Shown piece by piece: positions 7,510 through 32,270 of a stretch of DNA of 64,000 nt. Source of the stretch: Sphingomonas sp. AP4-R1. Lineage in GTDB: Bacteria > Pseudomonadota > Alphaproteobacteria > Sphingomonadales > Sphingomonadaceae. Made by a program: the position numbers and the translations under genes. Position 1 is the first letter of the stretch, and every line of letters begins with the position of its first letter. The stretch covers positions 3,548,001 through 3,612,000 of the forward strand of contig NZ_CP053346.1 in assembly GCF_013113735.1 (NCBI RefSeq), in the 5' to 3' direction. The notes below the pieces were generated by a model, which ran no database searches, was not told where the DNA came from, and worked only from the letters and a program-made list of their open reading frames with translations.

Positions 7510-7598
7510 CCGTTCGTGCTGAGCCTGTCGAAGCACTGTTCTTCTCTTCCTACCGCAAGAAAGAGGAACGGCCCTCCAACCGGCTCAGGGCAAACGGA
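7510..7598. repeat. Dispersed palindromic element, family A (degenerate right arm)
   Basis: The left arm CGTTCGTGCTGAGCCTGTCG matches the arms of the elements at 28133 and 10921. The right arm (CCGGCTCAGGGCAAACGG) is a decayed inverted copy. The element fills most of the gap between the receptor terminator and the hydrolase gene. Confidence 0.7.
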
Positions 7599-10920: not shown

Positions 10921-11005
10921 TCCGTTCGTTCTGAGCGAAGTCGAAGAACGTGCTTCAAGCGGTGCCCGCGAGGCCCGTGCTTCGACTTCGCTCAGAACGA
11001 ACGGA
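10921..11005. repeat. Dispersed palindromic element, family A (perfect 26-bp arms)
   Basis: Arms 10921-10946 and 10980-11005 are exact reverse complements (core TTCTGAGCGAAGTCGAAG) around a 33-base centre. The element occupies the gap between the GH2 and GH43-like genes and would fold into a long hairpin in RNA. It is the cleanest family A copy in the window. Confidence 0.9.
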
Positions 11006-12018: not shown

Positions 12019-12424
12019 GGGGCTGGCAGCCTCTGTGCTGAACGATCGCGATGGGTGAACAACGGCCATATATTGCCTCGTCATCCCGGCCTTGAGCCGG
12101 GATCCCACTATCTTTGCGATGCTCCGAAAAACAAGAAGCGGGACCCCGGCTCAAGGCCGGGGTGACGAGGTTATCGACATGTCAGGAACGGGTGGAAAGC
12201 GGCCGTCCGTTCAGGCCCTCTCCGGCGAAGGCTGGAGAGGATTATGCGGCAACGTCCGCCACCGCCGATAGTCGACACTCCCATCCCCCGTCATCCCAAC
12301 GAAGGCTGGGATCCATGTCCCTCTCTCAATGAGGCAATGATCGCCGGAATAGAAATGGATACTGGCCGGCGCTGACATGACGGATCAGGAGCGGGGACGC
12401 TCTCACGTCCCCGCCACACCTCGA
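12019..12424. repeat. Gene-free gap with two palindromic elements
   Basis: No convincing gene is seen. One family B element has 31-base arms (12076-12106 and 12140-12170, two mismatches; core CCGGCCTTGAGCCGG). A second, more degenerate element spans 12289-12382 with arms starting CGTCATCCCAACGAAGGC. The gap separates convergent genes (GH43-like on plus, mannonate dehydratase on minus), so the hairpins may help end transcription from both sides. Confidence 0.75.
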
Positions 12425-16103: not shown

Positions 16104-16189
16104 CGTCATCCCGGACTTGATCCGGGGTCCCGCTGCCTTCTTTTGATCACGTGAAGGCAGCGGGACCCCGGATCAAGTCCGGGGTGACG
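16104..16189. repeat. Dispersed palindromic element, family B (37-bp arms), between convergent genes
   Basis: Arms 16104-16140 and 16153-16189 are reverse complements with a single mismatch (core CCGGACTTGATCCGGGGTCC) around a 12-base loop. The element ends five bases before the GH43 stop codon, so it can act as a two-way transcription stop. Confidence 0.92.
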
Positions 16190-25607: not shown

Positions 25608-25670
25608 CTGTTCTTCCTTTCGCGCGAGGTCGAAGGAAGGACGGTGCTTCGACAAGCTCAGCATGAGAGG
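25608..25670. repeat. Dispersed palindromic element, family A (shortened)
   Basis: The right arm GTGCTTCGACAAGCTCAGCA is clear; the left arm is eroded, leaving an inner hairpin (TTCTTCCTTTCG with CGAAGGAAGGA). It lies in the 208-base gap before the MATE gene. Confidence 0.65.
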
Positions 25671-27172: not shown

Positions 27173-28108
27173 ATGAGCGATATCGGCGCGATCGTCCGCG
27201 ATATCGCGCGGGAGATGGCGGCCGTCGCGCAGCGCGGGCGCGTGGCCGACTATATCCCGCCGCTGGCCGAGGTGGATCCGGCGCGCTTCGGGATCGCGGT
27301 GGTGGAGGCGGACGGCGCCTGCCATCTGGCGGGCGACGCCGACATGCCCTTCTCGATCCAGAGCGTGTCCAAGGTCTTCTCGCTCACGCTGGCGCTGGGC
27401 AAGGTGGGCGACGCTTTGTGGCAGCGCGTGGGGCGGGAGCCTTCGGGCAGCGCGTTCAACTCGATCGTCCAGCTGGAGACGGAGAGCGGCATTCCCCGCA
27501 ATCCCTTCATCAATGCGGGCGCGATCGTCGTTTCGGATGTGGTGCTGGCCGGGCATCAGCCGCGCGAGGCGATCGCCGAGATCTTGCGCTTCACGCGCGC
27601 GCTGGCGGGCGACGACGCGATCTTCGTGGACGAGCATGTGGCGCAGGCCGAGCAGGGCACGGGCTTCCGCAACGCCGCGCTCGCCAATTACATGCGGGCC
27701 TTCGGCAACCTCCGCCATCCGGTGGAGCAGGCACTGGGCGTCTATTTCCACCAGTGCGCGATCGCGATGTCCTGTCGCCAGCTGGCGTTGGCCGGGCGCT
27801 ATCTGATGCTGGCGGGGCGCAGCCCGGCGACGGGCGGATCGGTGATCTCGGCCGCCCGCGCGCGCCGCATCAACGCGCTGATGATGACGTGCGGCCATTA
27901 TGACGGATCGGGCGAGTTCGCCTATCGCGTGGGCCTACCGGGCAAGTCCGGCGTGGGCGGCGGGATCCTCGCCATCGCGCCCGCGCGCGCCTCGATCGCG
28001 GTATGGTCGCCGGGGCTGAACGAGCGCGGCAATTCGGAGATCGGCACGATCGCGCTGGAGCGGCTGGTGCAGCGGACGGGCTGGTCCGTATTCGGGCCGA
28101 GTTATTAG
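27173..28108 (+). CDS. glsA: Glutaminase
   Basis: The 311-residue enzyme hydrolyses glutamine to glutamate and ammonia. It belongs to the serine-dependent glutaminase family, with the SxxK pair Ser64/Lys67 in IQSVSKVF, the conserved EPSGSAFNS and NPFINAGAI segments, and GKSGVGGGI near the C-terminus. Length equals the family norm of about 310. ATG lies seven bases after the MATE stop. A small hairpin (GGGCT...AGCCC) just after the stop may weakly terminate transcription. Confidence 0.95.
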
Positions 28109-28132
28109 GGCTGGTTTAAGCCCACCACTTTC

Positions 28133-28217
28133 CGTTCGCGCTGAGCCTGTCGAAGTGCCGTTCTTCTTTTTCGACGTCGGGAAGAAGGACGGTGCTTCGA
28201 CAGGCTCAGCACGAACG
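28133..28217. repeat. Dispersed palindromic element, family A
   Basis: Arms 28133-28155 and 28195-28217 are inverted copies with one mismatch (core CTGAGCCTGTCGAAG), and the inner part pairs further (CCGTTCTTC with GAAGAAGGACGG). It lies between glsA and thrC. Confidence 0.85.
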
Positions 28218-28292
28218 TTTTTCGGGGTGAGGTGTTTGGTCTCGGACGATCCGTCATTCCCGCGTCGCAGCCGCCGCGCTAGAAGCACGCGC

Positions 28293-29522
28293 ATGAATCC
28301 GAACCTGAACCTCACCGCCGATCGCCCCACCTTCGTCACCCATCTCGAATGTTCTATGACGGGCGAGCGTTATGAGGCGGATCAGGTCCACGGCCTGTCG
28401 CGGGTCGGGCGTCCGCTGCTGGTGCGCTACGATCTGGAGGCGGTGAAGGCGCAGGTGGATCGCGATGCCATCGCCGCGCGACCGACCGATCTGTGGCGCT
28501 GGCGCGAGCTGCTTCCGGTGCGGGCGACGCGCGATATCGTGAGCCTCGGCGAGATCGAGACGCCGCTGGTGCCGCTGCCCGCCAGCGGCGGCGCGAACGT
28601 GCTGGTGAAGGATGAGGGGCGCCTCCCGACCGGATCGTTCAAGGCGCGCGGTCTGGTGATGGCGGTGGCGATGGCCAAGGCGCTGGGGATCACGCGCATC
28701 GCCATGCCCACCAACGGCAATGCCGGCGCGGCGCTGGCCGCCTATGCGACGCGCTGCGGGATCGAGACGATCGTCTTCTGTCCCGAGGATACCCCCGAGA
28801 TCAACGTGCGCGAGATCGCCTTGCAGGGCGCGCGGGTATGGCGCGTGAACGGGCTGATCGACGATTGCGGCGCGATCGTGGGCGAGGGCGCGAAGCAGGG
28901 GCGCTGGTTCGATTTCTCGACGCTGAAGGAGCCCTACCGGATCGAGGGCAAGAAGACGATGGGGCTGGAACTGGCCGCGCAGCTCGGCTGGCGCCTGCCC
29001 AAGGCGATCTTCTACCCCACCGGCGGCGGCACGGGCCTGATCGGCATGTGGAAGGCCTTTGCCGAGTTGGAGGCCCTGGGCTGGATCGGTGCCGAGCGGC
29101 CGAAGATGTTCGCGGTGCAGGCCGCGGGCTGCGCGCCGATGGTGAAGGCCTTCGACGAGGGCGTGGAGCATGCCGAGCGCTGGGAGAATGCGCATACGGT
29201 GGCGGCGGGGATCCGCGTGCCGCGCGCGGTGGGCGATTTCCTGATCCTGCGGGCCGTGCGCGAGAGCGGCGGCAAGGCGCTGGCGGTGGAGGACGAGGCG
29301 ATCCTGCGCGCGGTGGACGATGCGGCGAAGCAGGACGGGCTTTTGCTGTGCCCCGAGGGTGGCGCGACGCTGGCCGCCTATCGCCGCGCACTGGCCGAGG
29401 GGCTGGTGGGCGCGGAGGATGAGGTGGTGCTGTTCAACTGCGCCACCGGCCTCAAATATCCGATGCCCGAGGCGCCGAACTGGCTGGACCGGACGCAGCC
29501 GATCGATTTCGACCGGCTGTAG
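28293..29522 (+). CDS. thrC: Threonine synthase
   Basis: The 409-residue pyridoxal-phosphate enzyme converts O-phosphohomoserine to threonine. The Schiff-base Lys117 lies in LPTGSFKARG, followed by the MPTNGNAGAALAAYA substrate/PLP loop and a glycine-rich PTGGGTGLIG phosphate-binding loop. The N-terminal half (HLECSMTGERYEAD) has the short zinc-ribbon-like start seen in the plant/archaeal-type threonine synthases, although only one Cys is visible. The ATG at 28293 is the first plausible start after the palindromic element. Confidence 0.88.
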   Translation: MNPNLNLTADRPTFVTHLECSMTGERYEADQVHGLSRVGRPLLVRYDLEAVKAQVDRDAIAARPTDLWRWRELLPVRATRDIVSLGEIETPLVPLPASGGANVLVKDEGRLPTGSFKARGLVMAVAMAKALGITRIAMPTNGNAGAALAAYATRCGIETIVFCPEDTPEINVREIALQGARVWRVNGLIDDCGAIVGEGAKQGRWFDFSTLKEPYRIEGKKTMGLELAAQLGWRLPKAIFYPTGGGTGLIGMWKAFAELEALGWIGAERPKMFAVQAAGCAPMVKAFDEGVEHAERWENAHTVAAGIRVPRAVGDFLILRAVRESGGKALAVEDEAILRAVDDAAKQDGLLLCPEGGATLAAYRRALAEGLVGAEDEVVLFNCATGLKYPMPEAPNWLDRTQPIDFDRL

Positions 29523-29543
29523 GGCGGGGCGAACCCTTCCATA

Positions 29544-29636
29544 CGTCATGCTGAACTTGTTTCAGCATCCATGACCTGCCCGTTGCGCCTGGAGTGGCGC
29601 TCGGGTGATGGACCCTGAACCAAATTCAGGGTGACG
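29544..29636. repeat. Palindromic element, family B variant
   Basis: CGTCATGCTGAACTTGTTTC opens the element and a partly matching inverted arm (ATGGACCCTGAACCAAATTC, then AGGGTGACG) closes it. It lies between the converging thrC and Tam41-like genes and resembles the copy at 30653. Confidence 0.7.
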
Positions 29637-29653
29637 AGAGGTGGAAAGCGTTC

Positions 29654-30643
29654 CTAGCGGATCGCGCCGCTCGCGATCAGGCGGGGGAGCAGGGTGAGCG
29701 CGCCGGCGATCGGCCAGCGGCGCTGCCAGGGCTTGATCTCCACCTTCTGGCCCGAGTGGCGGCTGATCTTCCACGCGAGATAATCGATCCCGCCCGCATA
29801 GGTGGCGCTGGCCTTGGCGAGACGGGCGAGGGTGAGCCACTTGCCGTTGCGGCGGAGCGTGGCCCAGCGGCGGGCGGCGGCGGCGGGGGTGAGCTGGGAC
29901 GGGCCGGTGATGGCGAGGACGGCGCGCCCGAACGTCTCGTAGCGGGCGGGATCGGCATCGACGACCGATCCAGGGCGGTTGGCGCGCTCCGCCCGGAGTT
30001 CCGCGCCGTAGGTGAGACGGAAGCCTTCGCGCCAGATCGTGAGGGGGTCGCCTTCCTCTATCCGTTCGTCCTGAGCGAAGTCGAAGGACGGGCTCCGGGC
30101 GGGGGCGGTTGGAGCCGGTGCTTCGACTTCGCTCAGCACCAACGGGTCGTTGGGTGGTGAGGGCAGCATCGGCAGGGCCAGCGCGAACAGAGTCGGAGCG
30201 GCGAGGGACACGGCATCGACGATGCGGCGGGCGGCGTCGGCATCCGCCTGCCATACCAGCCGGGAGGGCTGGGCGAATCGGGCCCAGACCGAGACGGTCT
30301 CCGCCTCCGGCCCGTTGAGGCGAGCGAAATCGTCGGCGCTCAGCACCGCATATTTGGCGACGAGGCCATCATGCTCGAACGGGAAGACGTTGGGCGGCAG
30401 CAGGCGGTTCGCGGTGGCGAGCCAGCGGCGGTCGAACGCCTGATCGTAGCTTTCCACGATCAGGTAGAAATCGAGCATCAGCCCGTCGAAGCTGCGCTCG
30501 CGCAGGCAGGAGCCGTAGAACAGGACGCCGAGCGCCGTAGGGTGGCGCGCCGCAATGGCGGCGGCCATCGCGGTGACGGGCGTGGGGACGGGCTCGGCCA
30601 GTTCAGCGGCGACGAGGTCGCGGAGGGGGGGAGGCATGTTCAT
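29654..30643 (-). CDS. Predicted nucleotidyltransferase, Tam41-like (phosphatidate cytidylyltransferase)
   Basis: The 329-residue protein has a nucleotidyltransferase signature (FYGSCLRERS, then GLMLDFYLIV) followed by AKYAVLSADDFARL. These three segments line up by eye with Tam41, which makes CDP-diacylglycerol from phosphatidate and CTP. A diacylglycerol-kinase-like gene just upstream on the same strand could supply phosphatidate. The in-frame palindromic element at 30062-30145 adds 28 residues (LVLSEVE...FDFAQDER) between the catalytic part and the C-terminal region. The ATG at 30643 was chosen because the earlier ATG at 30655 lies inside another repeat; 30637 is an alternative. Confidence 0.6.
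   Translation of the reverse strand: MNMPPPLRDLVAAELAEPVPTPVTAMAAAIAARHPTALGVLFYGSCLRERSFDGLMLDFYLIVESYDQAFDRRWLATANRLLPPNVFPFEHDGLVAKYAVLSADDFARLNGPEAETVSVWARFAQPSRLVWQADADAARRIVDAVSLAAPTLFALALPMLPSPPNDPLVLSEVEAPAPTAPARSPSFDFAQDERIEEGDPLTIWREGFRLTYGAELRAERANRPGSVVDADPARYETFGRAVLAITGPSQLTPAAAARRWATLRRNGKWLTLARLAKASATYAGGIDYLAWKISRHSGQKVEIKPWQRRWPIAGALTLLPRLIASGAIR
30062..30145. repeat. Family A palindromic element inside a coding sequence
   Basis: Arms 30062-30086 and 30121-30145 are inverted copies with two mismatches (core CTGAGCGAAGTCGAAG). The 84-base length keeps the reading frame of the Tam41-like gene on the minus strand. Confidence 0.9.
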
Positions 30644-30652
30644 TGTCCCTGT

Positions 30653-30747
30653 CATGCTGAACGCGTTTCAGCATCCATGACCTGCCTTCTCAACGGGCGA
30701 TACCGTCGATGGATTCGGGTGATGGATGCTGAAACGCGCTCAGCATG
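30653..30747. repeat. Palindromic element, family B variant, between kinase and Tam41-like genes
   Basis: Arms 30653-30678 and 30722-30747 are inverted copies with one mismatch (core GCGTTTCAGCATCCAT). It fills the gap between two same-strand genes and ends 13 bases after the kinase stop, so it may set relative expression within the operon. Confidence 0.88.
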
Positions 30748-30760
30748 GCGATGGCCGATT

Positions 30761-31726
30761 TCAGGCCGCGAGGCGGACGAAGGGCAGGGGATCGGTGTGG
30801 CGCAGCACGATCGTGCGGCCGGCGCCCGCCTGGAACACCTCGCCATCGAGGATCAGGCTGGAATGGTCGCCCGAGATGCGGATCTCGTCGCCACTCTCCA
30901 CCTGCACGCCGTGCAGCCGGCCATAATCGAGCTTGCCGAGCGCGCTGGTGATCACCGCGCGCAGCAAAGCGAGCGGATTCTGATCGACGAGCAGCAGTTG
31001 CAGCGCGCCGAGGCGGCCGTCCGAGGGAACGTTCGAACCCAGCAGCAGCTTCTTGAGCGTGGTGACGATCAGCAGCGAGAAATGGCCCTGGATCTGGCCC
31101 TGGCGGATCAGCTGCACCTTCACCGAGGAGGGGCGCGGCGGCAGGAAGGCGGCGCGCATCCCCAGCACCAGCGACAGCATCAGCGCGAAGAAGGTGAGCA
31201 CGTGGCTCAGCCAGTTGGGCAGGCCGAGCGGGTAGATCTTGTTGCGGCAATAGAGGATCGAATCGGCCAGTCCCGCGCCGCCGAGGAACATGCCCAGCAC
31301 CGGCGTGCCGCCATCCTCGCTCAGCGCGATCAACTCGCGGCTGACAATATGATCCTTGATCGGGCCGCGCGCGATCTCCAGCACCTTCTCCAGCGCGACG
31401 ATCGGATCGCCGACGGCGCCCAGATCCAGCGCGATCAGGTTGGTCTTGCCGTTGGGCAGCACCGCCACGGGCGGCGGCGTCTGGCCGAACTGGCCGCCAT
31501 GATAGAGTTCGGTCAGCGTCGACTGCACCGTGCCGTCGCCGCCGTTGATGACGAGAATCGCGGGCTGGACGCGCGCGATCGTCTTCAGCGCGGCGCCGAT
31601 CTGGTCCGCGCTCTCCACCTCATAGTGGAAGATCTCGGGATGGTCCGCGCAGAAGCTGCGGACGCGCGGGAGCAGCGACCGGTTGCCGGTCGACTGCGGA
31701 TTGGACAGAAGCGCGATACGGACCAT
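30761..31726 (-). CDS. Diacylglycerol-kinase-family lipid kinase
   Basis: The 321-residue protein has the DAGK catalytic domain with the nucleotide-binding INGGDGTVQ (residues 61-68) and an N-terminal NPQSTGNR segment, as in YegS/DgkB-type kinases. The C-terminal beta-sandwich includes LGSNVPSDGRLGALQLLLVD. It should phosphorylate diacylglycerol or a related lipid. It starts seven bases after the DUF2141 gene, and the Tam41-like gene follows, so phosphatidate is the inferred product. A sphingoid-lipid substrate is possible in a sphingomonad. Confidence 0.87.
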   Translation of the reverse strand: MVRIALLSNPQSTGNRSLLPRVRSFCADHPEIFHYEVESADQIGAALKTIARVQPAILVINGGDGTVQSTLTELYHGGQFGQTPPPVAVLPNGKTNLIALDLGAVGDPIVALEKVLEIARGPIKDHIVSRELIALSEDGGTPVLGMFLGGAGLADSILYCRNKIYPLGLPNWLSHVLTFFALMLSLVLGMRAAFLPPRPSSVKVQLIRQGQIQGHFSLLIVTTLKKLLLGSNVPSDGRLGALQLLLVDQNPLALLRAVITSALGKLDYGRLHGVQVESGDEIRISGDHSSLILDGEVFQAGAGRTIVLRHTDPLPFVRLAA

Positions 31727-31733
31727 CGATATC

Positions 31734-32270
31734 CTAGGGGCGTTCGGCGGATGCGACCGGCTTGACCGCTCCGCCTTGAATATAATTGAGAATCACGGGC
31801 ACCTTCGTCACGCCCGCCACCTTCACCTCGACCTGCGCGGGCGAGGGGCGGCGCTTGAACACGACATCCATCAGCGAGACGTTCGGATTGCCGGAGAAGC
31901 CGCCGCCGTCGGACATGTCGGACTTGCCGCTGCCGTTCACGTCATGGCGGATCGAGATCGCATATTTGCCGGGCGCGGGCACGACCATGCACACGTCCAG
32001 CGCGCCGCTGGCGGGCGCGGGCACCTCGACACGCTCGATATAAGTGCCCTTGTCGAAATAATGATCGGGATCCCCGCCATAGGACTGGACGCGGACCAGA
32101 CCCGTGCGCGCCTTCAGGCCCAGCACGCGCACCAGCATCGCCGGCTTCTCGGAGCCGGCGGCGCAATCCGCGGCGTGCGGGCCGACGATCGCGGCGGCCG
32201 CGATCGGGGGCGCGACGACGCTGCCCGCGCAGAGCGCAGCGGCAACGACGGGCACGAGAAGTTTAGACAT
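31734..32270 (-). CDS. Secreted DUF2141 family protein
   Basis: The 178-residue protein has a signal peptide (LVPVVAAALCAGSVVAPPIA) and a beta-rich domain with PAPGKYAISIRHDVNGSGK and GFSGNP, typical of DUF2141. Function is not established. The ATG at 32270 was chosen because it opens the signal peptide; longer in-frame starts run into the divergent promoter region. It heads a minus-strand operon with the lipid kinase and is divergent from lptF. Confidence 0.8.
   Translation of the reverse strand: MSKLLVPVVAAALCAGSVVAPPIAAAAIVGPHAADCAAGSEKPAMLVRVLGLKARTGLVRVQSYGGDPDHYFDKGTYIERVEVPAPASGALDVCMVVPAPGKYAISIRHDVNGSGKSDMSDGGGFSGNPNVSLMDVVFKRRPSPAQVEVKVAGVTKVPVILNYIQGGAVKPVASAERP

Follow-up and report, generated by a model that had tools for sequence, protein, structure and literature searches.

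At positions 29654..30655 of the window, the 64,000-nucleotide stretch analysed here (G000:C1:3548001-3612000 of the 5.27 Mb source genome, G000), the minus strand carries a gene for a conserved sphingomonad protein, a putative cytidylyltransferase at most. Inside this host gene lies a palindromic element of a repeat family that we call family A (30062..30145; no strand is assigned to this or the other dimers and copies below). It is a head-to-head dimer of two hairpin arms, 84 nucleotides or 28 codons long. The left arm (30062..30096, plus strand) reads CCGTTCGTC-CTGAGCGAAGTCGAAG-GACGGGC... and has an outer pair of the C/G type, and the right arm (30111..30145, minus strand), read on the minus strand as CCGTTGGTG-CTGAGCGAAGTCGAAG-CACCGGC..., has an outer pair of the G/C type. 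The two arms are inverted, 35 nucleotides each and 89% complementary, with a 14-nucleotide spacer. The right arm has GGTG/CACC where CGTG/CACG is usual, a pair seen in 2 of 94 family A arms; since both sides are replaced, its own stem still pairs. With DNA parameters the whole element folds at z -9.3 on the plus strand and z -7.9 on the minus strand, values that none of 200 shuffles equals on either strand. Each 35-nucleotide arm of this copy, folded singly, does no better than shuffles (z -0.05 and -0.85), and support for the arm hairpins therefore comes from covariation (see below) and not from energy. The minus-strand ORF 29654-30655 is stop-free across the element and translates there as ...NDPLVLSEVEAPAPTAPARSPSFDFAQDERIEEG..., in agreement with an earlier sequence-only reading of this DNA, according to which 84 bases add 28 codons and leave the frame intact.

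The host protein has 333 residues if translated from the ATG at 30655, or 327 residues from the ATG at 30637 (P0001, the database form). In our view the latter is the likelier start, because ATG 30655 sits within another repeat, a CGTC-type dimer made of TGTCATGCTGAACGCG...CATCCA and its inverse (30650..30750) that overlaps this ATG at the gene’s 5′ end. A short way downstream of the gene, a CGTC-type REP arm, CGTCATGCTGAACTTGTTTCAGCATCCA, lies at 29544-29571 and faces a second arm, read by eye, that ends in CGTC (29601-29637), the two forming a dimer at 29544..29637. The host gene is bracketed by these two CGTC-like REP dimers, so that three palindromes of two types lie within 1.2 kb, and more CGTC-like palindromes are found in the window at 12289, 12356 and 16104-16189.

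The product had been labelled a Tam41-like ‘lipid enzyme’. We do not retain this label: P0001 matched nothing in Pfam up to E 1 or in NCBIfam up to E 0.001, a PDB profile search up to E 10 returned one unrelated match (E 1.4) and no credible relative, and the name derives only from the source databases, in which some homologues are called ‘phosphatidate cytidylyltransferase’. The gene itself looks intact. At the 73 invariant columns and the 121 columns at least 90% conserved among 64 chosen homologues, P0001 shows 0 deviations, which argues that the gene is not decaying, and our codon model scores the sequence to either side of the element as coding, with 22 and 16 bits. The gene is the only full-length match in its genome. 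A match is present in 77 of 98 genomes, G000 included, and the 21 genomes without one at E ≤ 0.001 indicate that the gene may be dispensable, as would be expected if it were a decaying pseudogene with the element as a harmless passenger. This explanation is nevertheless very unlikely given the full-length open frame, the conserved columns, the coding signal on both flanks and the presence of a like insert in the tRNA synthetase gene GlyS, which has one full-length match in G000; the decay that had earlier been raised as a possibility is not found.

Two dispersed families of head-to-head repeats

The exact paired pattern of family A, CTGAGCNNNGTCGAAG(20-50)CTTCGACNNNGCTCAG, occurs 47 times in G000 and 0 times in a reversed-pattern control, from which we conclude that the element is not a chance palindrome. 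Together with the arms and the fold, these counts bear out the proposal that a palindromic element occupies 30062-30145. Family A core matches number 144, of which 94 are in exact pairs, and a sister family with a 15-nucleotide core, family B, has 70 paired copies. All 47 A copies and 56 of the 70 B copies were examined, 103 together. Measured as core length plus 18, family A elements are 84 (23 copies), 83 (20), 85 (2) or 89 (2) nucleotides long; in the pooled arms conservation begins abruptly at CCGTTCG, and there is little similarity outside the element ends. The sequence-only reading had assigned four further places in the window, at 7510, 10921, 25608 and 28133, to the family of the host-gene element. 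Only one of them, at 10922..11004 (83 nucleotides, with the 16-nucleotide core CTGAGCNNNGTCGAAG; not in frame in a gene by the codon-model scan), is family A. The copies at 7510..7597, with a degenerate right arm, and at 28132..28218 (87 nucleotides, upstream of a PALP-domain gene) belong to family B, and the stretch from 25608 onward is a degenerate B copy (25608..25670) with a single intact arm at 25647-25661.

An Rfam search of 28000-32000 gave three matches, every one under its gathering score. The 28132 family B copy matched RF02901 (Aggregatibacter sRNA 41; gathering 97) with 39.7 and 38.4 bits (E ~1e-6), the matches lying at 28134-28264 on the plus strand and 28069-28219 on the minus strand, and also MIR439 with 32 bits. 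Odd as they are, these matches perhaps reflect a common palindromic core only.

In both families the arms covary. The bases just outside and just inside the core (-1/+16) pair in 91 of 94 A arms, compared to 41.6 expected from column composition; in B arms the same pair forms in 101 of 112 (44.1 expected) and the next step in 110 of 112 (54.0 expected). At the -1/+16 position the two arms of a single A element differ in 34 of 47 cases. Since pairing within arms is strong and the two arms so often differ, the maintained unit is the single-arm hairpin, and not only the large palindrome.

Families A and B are REP-type head-to-head dimers that lack the described REP tags. CGTC REPs, which according to the main text of Di Nocera, De Gregorio and Rocco 2013 (PMC3733652) are mostly alphaproteobacterial and mostly intergenic, mostly form head-to-head dimers, often heterodimers, and no transposase was found for them. 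Families A and B likewise are mostly head-to-head dimers, and G000 has no PF01797 transposase. However, their core is different. None of the 94 A arms and none of the 112 B arms starts with CGTC, TGTC or CCTC followed by AT (0/206), and most arms lack the CCA tail: a CCA up to 14 nucleotides inside the core was seen in 11 of 206, of which 9 belong to family A and 2 to family B. Unlike A and B, the two repeats that flank the host gene at 29544 and 30650 do fit the CGTC type. The second comparison is with GTAG REPs and REPINs that are associated with a RAYT (PF01797). These resemble A and B in the head-to-head pairing and in hairpin arms kept by compensatory change, but GTAG or CTAC lies up to 14 nucleotides beside the core in just 6 arms, all of them among the 94 of family A and none among the 112 of family B, leaving 200 of 206 arms without the terminal tag; a few A cores carry GTAG within the loop.

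The paired A pattern is found in 6 of 98 genomes (own and relatives), with 47 copies in G000, 44 in G033, 14 in G002, 2 in G006 and 1 each in G001 and G028, and a stricter pattern recovers G000 alone (1/289) in a class-wide sample in which most genomes are from outside the family. Among the matches listed, the translated insert has hits in records of Sphingomonas natans, S. immobilis, S. jinjuensis and Hyphomonas johnsonii, and plasmid records gave one match, a Sphingomonas plasmid (77%). Non-genic copies with both neighbours callable lie in 11 tandem, 3 convergent and 0 divergent gaps for family A (29 A copies unassigned) and in 11 tandem, 7 convergent and 0 divergent gaps for family B (37 unassigned). 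The copy numbers suggest that the A and B elements are mobile; recent transposition events were not observed.

As a candidate mover we considered the PF01797 transposase and rejected it. The gene has no match in G000; it is matched in 21 of 98 genomes, and of the six paired-A genomes in G033 alone, where the gene is not flanked by repeats, no exact A or B core being present in the 7 kb read around it.

The insertion site in orthologues

Among the matches listed to the host protein, similarity breaks off near residue 165 and restarts near residue 200. We fetched and aligned 29 orthologues: the site is empty in 28, and in L050, the remaining one, a contig edge cuts the sequence off before the site. 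In 120 homologues, P0001 among them, the linker measures 9-16 residues in 114, 25 in P0012 and 43-46 in P0001-P0005. Orthologues that lack the element also lack the 28-residue segment (28 of the 29 fetched), as befits the insertion that had been proposed. It is exceedingly improbable that the protein had the segment from the start and that the palindromic look of the segment arose by chance; its presence in four further homologues could be read in this way, but both arms match 46 other dispersed copies and the linker is short in 114 of 120 homologues.

The four further bearers of the insert, P0002-P0005, are encoded on short contigs; their inserts align with that of P0001 over 28 residues in an identical register, free of gaps. 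The inserts of P0001-P0003 are 79-96% identical to each other, and in the seven comparisons that include P0004 or P0005, identity is 57-68% over the insert and 79-84% over the remainder of the protein. For individual pairs, the insert and the rest are 82% and 83% identical between P0001 and P0002, 57% and 84% between P0001 and P0004, and 57% and 82% between P0004 and P0005. In a tree built from the flanks of 36 of these 120 homologues, with the linker removed, the five insert bearers are not united and require 4 changes, on weak branches, and a constraint uniting them in one clade is not rejected (p-AU 0.088). Either the insert predates the split of the P0001-P0005 proteins or it was gained more than once. 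We lean towards a single origin, because all five share the 28-residue length and a right end of the FDFAQDER type, while the other genic copies of family A have a STSLxTNG-like end.

Retention of the insert in several species, with exactly 28 aligned residues in one gap-free register in five homologues and with high identity among P0001-P0003, is what would be seen if the segment had by now acquired a selected role, for example in an interaction or as a flexible acidic linker. We consider such true domestication unlikely, since 115 of 120 homologues do without the insert, the insert is less well conserved than the rest of the protein in all seven P0004 and P0005 comparisons, and the GlyS and ValS genes described below accept differing repeat families at one linker, which points to tolerance and not to one useful peptide. 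The sequence-only reading, in which the element is translated like the palindromic elements of Rickettsia and has been ‘domesticated’, is upheld as to a dispersed palindrome that keeps the frame of an apparently intact gene open, but we see no sign of peptide function and drop the second term. Our preferred reading is that a REP-type mobile palindrome inserted into a permissive variable linker and is translated as 28 extra residues that are tolerated, and we hold this to be probable with good confidence.

In-frame copies and the linkers of GlyS and ValS

Copies were scored as genic when a stop-free frame ran through the copy with coding signal on both sides, using our own codon model, which was trained on the window without annotation and assigned the right frame in 298 of 320 windows taken from its own training genes. 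The scan covered the 103 copies of G000, 34 of the 44 A copies of G033 and the 14 copies of G002, 151 in all, with the copies of G006, G001 and G028 left out. Five of the 103 G000 copies are in frame within genes: four of family A, in the host gene, PccA, a CcmF-family gene and GlyS, and one of family B, in AddB. PccA is propionyl-CoA carboxylase alpha (888 bits to 3n6r, full length), and the 3n6r chain has its own loop at the place of the insertion. G033 contributes one in-frame copy of 34, in an MtaB-like gene identified by sequence reading, and G002 one of 14, in ValS. Relatives with an empty site are seen for GlyS and ValS. As gene calls cover 77% of the window, 7 in-frame genic copies of 151 mean that A and B copies are clearly depleted from genes, and would do so with a few more that the scan had overlooked.

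All six family A in-frame copies use the register P-[F/L]-[V/A]-L-S-[E/D]-V-E in the accepted gene, a bias noticed after the fact, with a two-sided chance of 0.03 under equal use. In the GlyS copy the antisense frame, which gives an arginine-rich register, also passed the thresholds, at 17 and 13 bits; we discarded it, since it is the opposite strand that matches the GlyS model. Family B genic copies use both open registers, AddB one and GlyS and ValS the other. The host-gene copy has 84 nucleotides and the FDFAQDER end; of the other five A genic copies, whose end is STSLxTNG-like, four have 83 nucleotides and one has 89.

To examine the synthetase linkers, we aligned GlyS from 12 genomes and ValS from 11 and picked four insert sites by eye. 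GlyS has one full-length match per genome (in pieces where divergent) and ValS one high-identity match per genome, with the exception of G006, which is 71% complete. The first GlyS linker is short in G003, G017 and G040 and is filled in the other nine with differing peptides. Judged by DNA cores, family A fills it in two genomes, with both arms exact in G000 and with one arm at 2 mismatches in G004. In G055 the filling is of family B and in G001 and G036 of a GGEG...LTQPSP type, whereas other peptides are present in G002, G006, G033 and G049. The ValS linker between GWP and RHYP holds family A in two genomes, exact in G002 and as one arm with 2 mismatches in G004, family B in G003 and GGEG-like inserts in G001 and G036, and is short in six genomes. 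The second ValS linker holds family B in G000, G003 and G049. In the C-terminal GlyS linker, family B is found in G055 and G049 and a CGTC-like dimer in G000, which consists of CGTCACCCCGGC... and its inverse ending in ...GGGATGACG and reads as RHPGLEPGSR. GlyS of G000 (L180:249-2837, minus strand) holds two repeats in frame, family A in the first linker and this CGTC-like repeat near the C-terminus.

With RNA parameters, 20 of 25 inserts of at least 18 residues at the four sites fold at z ≤ -3 (median -4.8), compared to 0 of 75 control windows from the same GlyS and ValS genes (median -0.4). Of the remaining variable segments of both alignments, tested afterwards, 2 of 17 reach z ≤ -3, both in GlyS of G049. 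Hairpin-forming inserts of several families at common linkers, as well as the strong fold of the host-gene element on the mRNA strand, would suit a role at the level of nucleic acid, whether as an mRNA hairpin that slows ribosomes between domains or as a DNA site, with the peptide incidental. In-frame genic copies are few, however (7 of the 151 examined), and the register of family A looks filtered at the level of the peptide, and we regard such a role as quite improbable.

Larger samples were drawn from databases as the best-scoring 120 ValS and 120 GlyS proteins, lists that are biased to proteins near insert-free queries. The first ValS linker has at least 22 residues in 18 of the best-scoring 120 ValS proteins; by eye four of these are A-type (P0274, P0290, P0306 and P0312, two of them found by the motif expression), five, including P0350, are GGEG-like, and the remaining nine share a GQQ.PEAYQ segment. 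For the second ValS linker the same length is reached in 5 of the best-scoring 120, two of them B-type. Among the best-scoring 120 GlyS proteins, at least 22 residues are present in four at the first linker and in five at the C-terminal one, with 0 of A or B type by motif.

Two other features of ValS were seen. At the GWP/RHYP linker, P0294, P0302, P0310, P0316, P0318, P0319, P0320, P0339 and P0342 have the GQQ.PEAYQ segment, which is no repeat of the above families and is possibly an old fixed insert or an original ValS feature. Furthermore, ValS of G000 (L299), G004, G033 and G049 (L303, L304 and L305 among them) has two extra segments after HQIP/HRIPxWxG; they do not fold into hairpins (8 segments, z -0.7 to -2.3) and are absent from the other seven genomes. 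The latter distribution suggests two ValS lineages or exchange among sphingomonads.

Returning to the linkers, we suggest tentatively, and with some reserve, that certain linkers of GlyS and ValS in sphingomonads may be recurrent landing pads, where A, B, CGTC-like and GGEG...QPSP repeats went into one and the same gap of a few residues in separate events in different species. Palindromes might then be a general and continuing source of in-frame segments in free-living bacteria, the register being filtered by selection at the protein level.

Relation to known insertions and significance

The in-frame insertion of palindromes is best known from Rickettsia, reportedly through the work of Ogata and Claverie, and weak selection in small populations provides an easy explanation there. 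Similar to families A and B, the Rickettsia palindromic elements lie in frame within genes and also between them, and their insertion in frame into open genes, absent from orthologues, has its counterpart in the host gene, GlyS and ValS. They differ in the host group, and the share of copies within genes is low here (7/151). By their description (PMC2759123), the RU small mobile sequences are also small repeats found inside some genes, albeit in enterobacterial hosts. Of the REP-bearing species named below, E. lithoralis is an Erythrobacter and S. alaskensis a Sphingopyxis.

In-frame REP insertion as such is already known, because the main text of PMC3733652 reports that some CGTC REPs lie within genes and code for 20-30 residues, tRNA synthetases of E. 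lithoralis and S. alaskensis being among them. The same text equates RPE-4 and RPE-6 with CGTC REPs and gives one case of different REPs near the same site, in recB of X. campestris and X. oryzae. The untagged A and B families and the recurrent landing sites appear to be new, and the finding of several families at one and the same linker extends what the main text of that study describes. A family related to A or B may already have been described, since S. wittichii and S. chlorophenolicum are named there and the consensus sequences and gene lists are placed in figures and supplements; CTGAGC, GTCGAAG and ‘Sphing’ give 0 matches in the main text of PMC3733652. In the papers searched, five core strings of 14-15 letters had no match.

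The insertion of the host-gene element probably proceeded as follows. A REP-type element, each of whose two head-to-head arms would fold as a small single-strand hairpin, would be moved in trans by some enzyme and so reach many places in the genome. One copy would land in the short variable linker of the host gene, in a stop-free frame, and would be translated as 28 extra residues, which such a permissive linker would tolerate. Protein-level selection would purge insertions that are out of frame, stop-bearing or badly placed, and those in a tolerable register within a permissive linker would survive.

In-frame palindromes are found here in tRNA synthetase genes that have one full-length match per genome, in genomes of 2.6-6.9 Mb. 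A single linker with differing repeat families and with empty-site relatives provides natural replicates for measuring what an enzyme tolerates, and a REP-like family devoid of the known tags raises the question of its mobilising enzyme. It looks as if repeat DNA does supply new protein segments, on a small scale.
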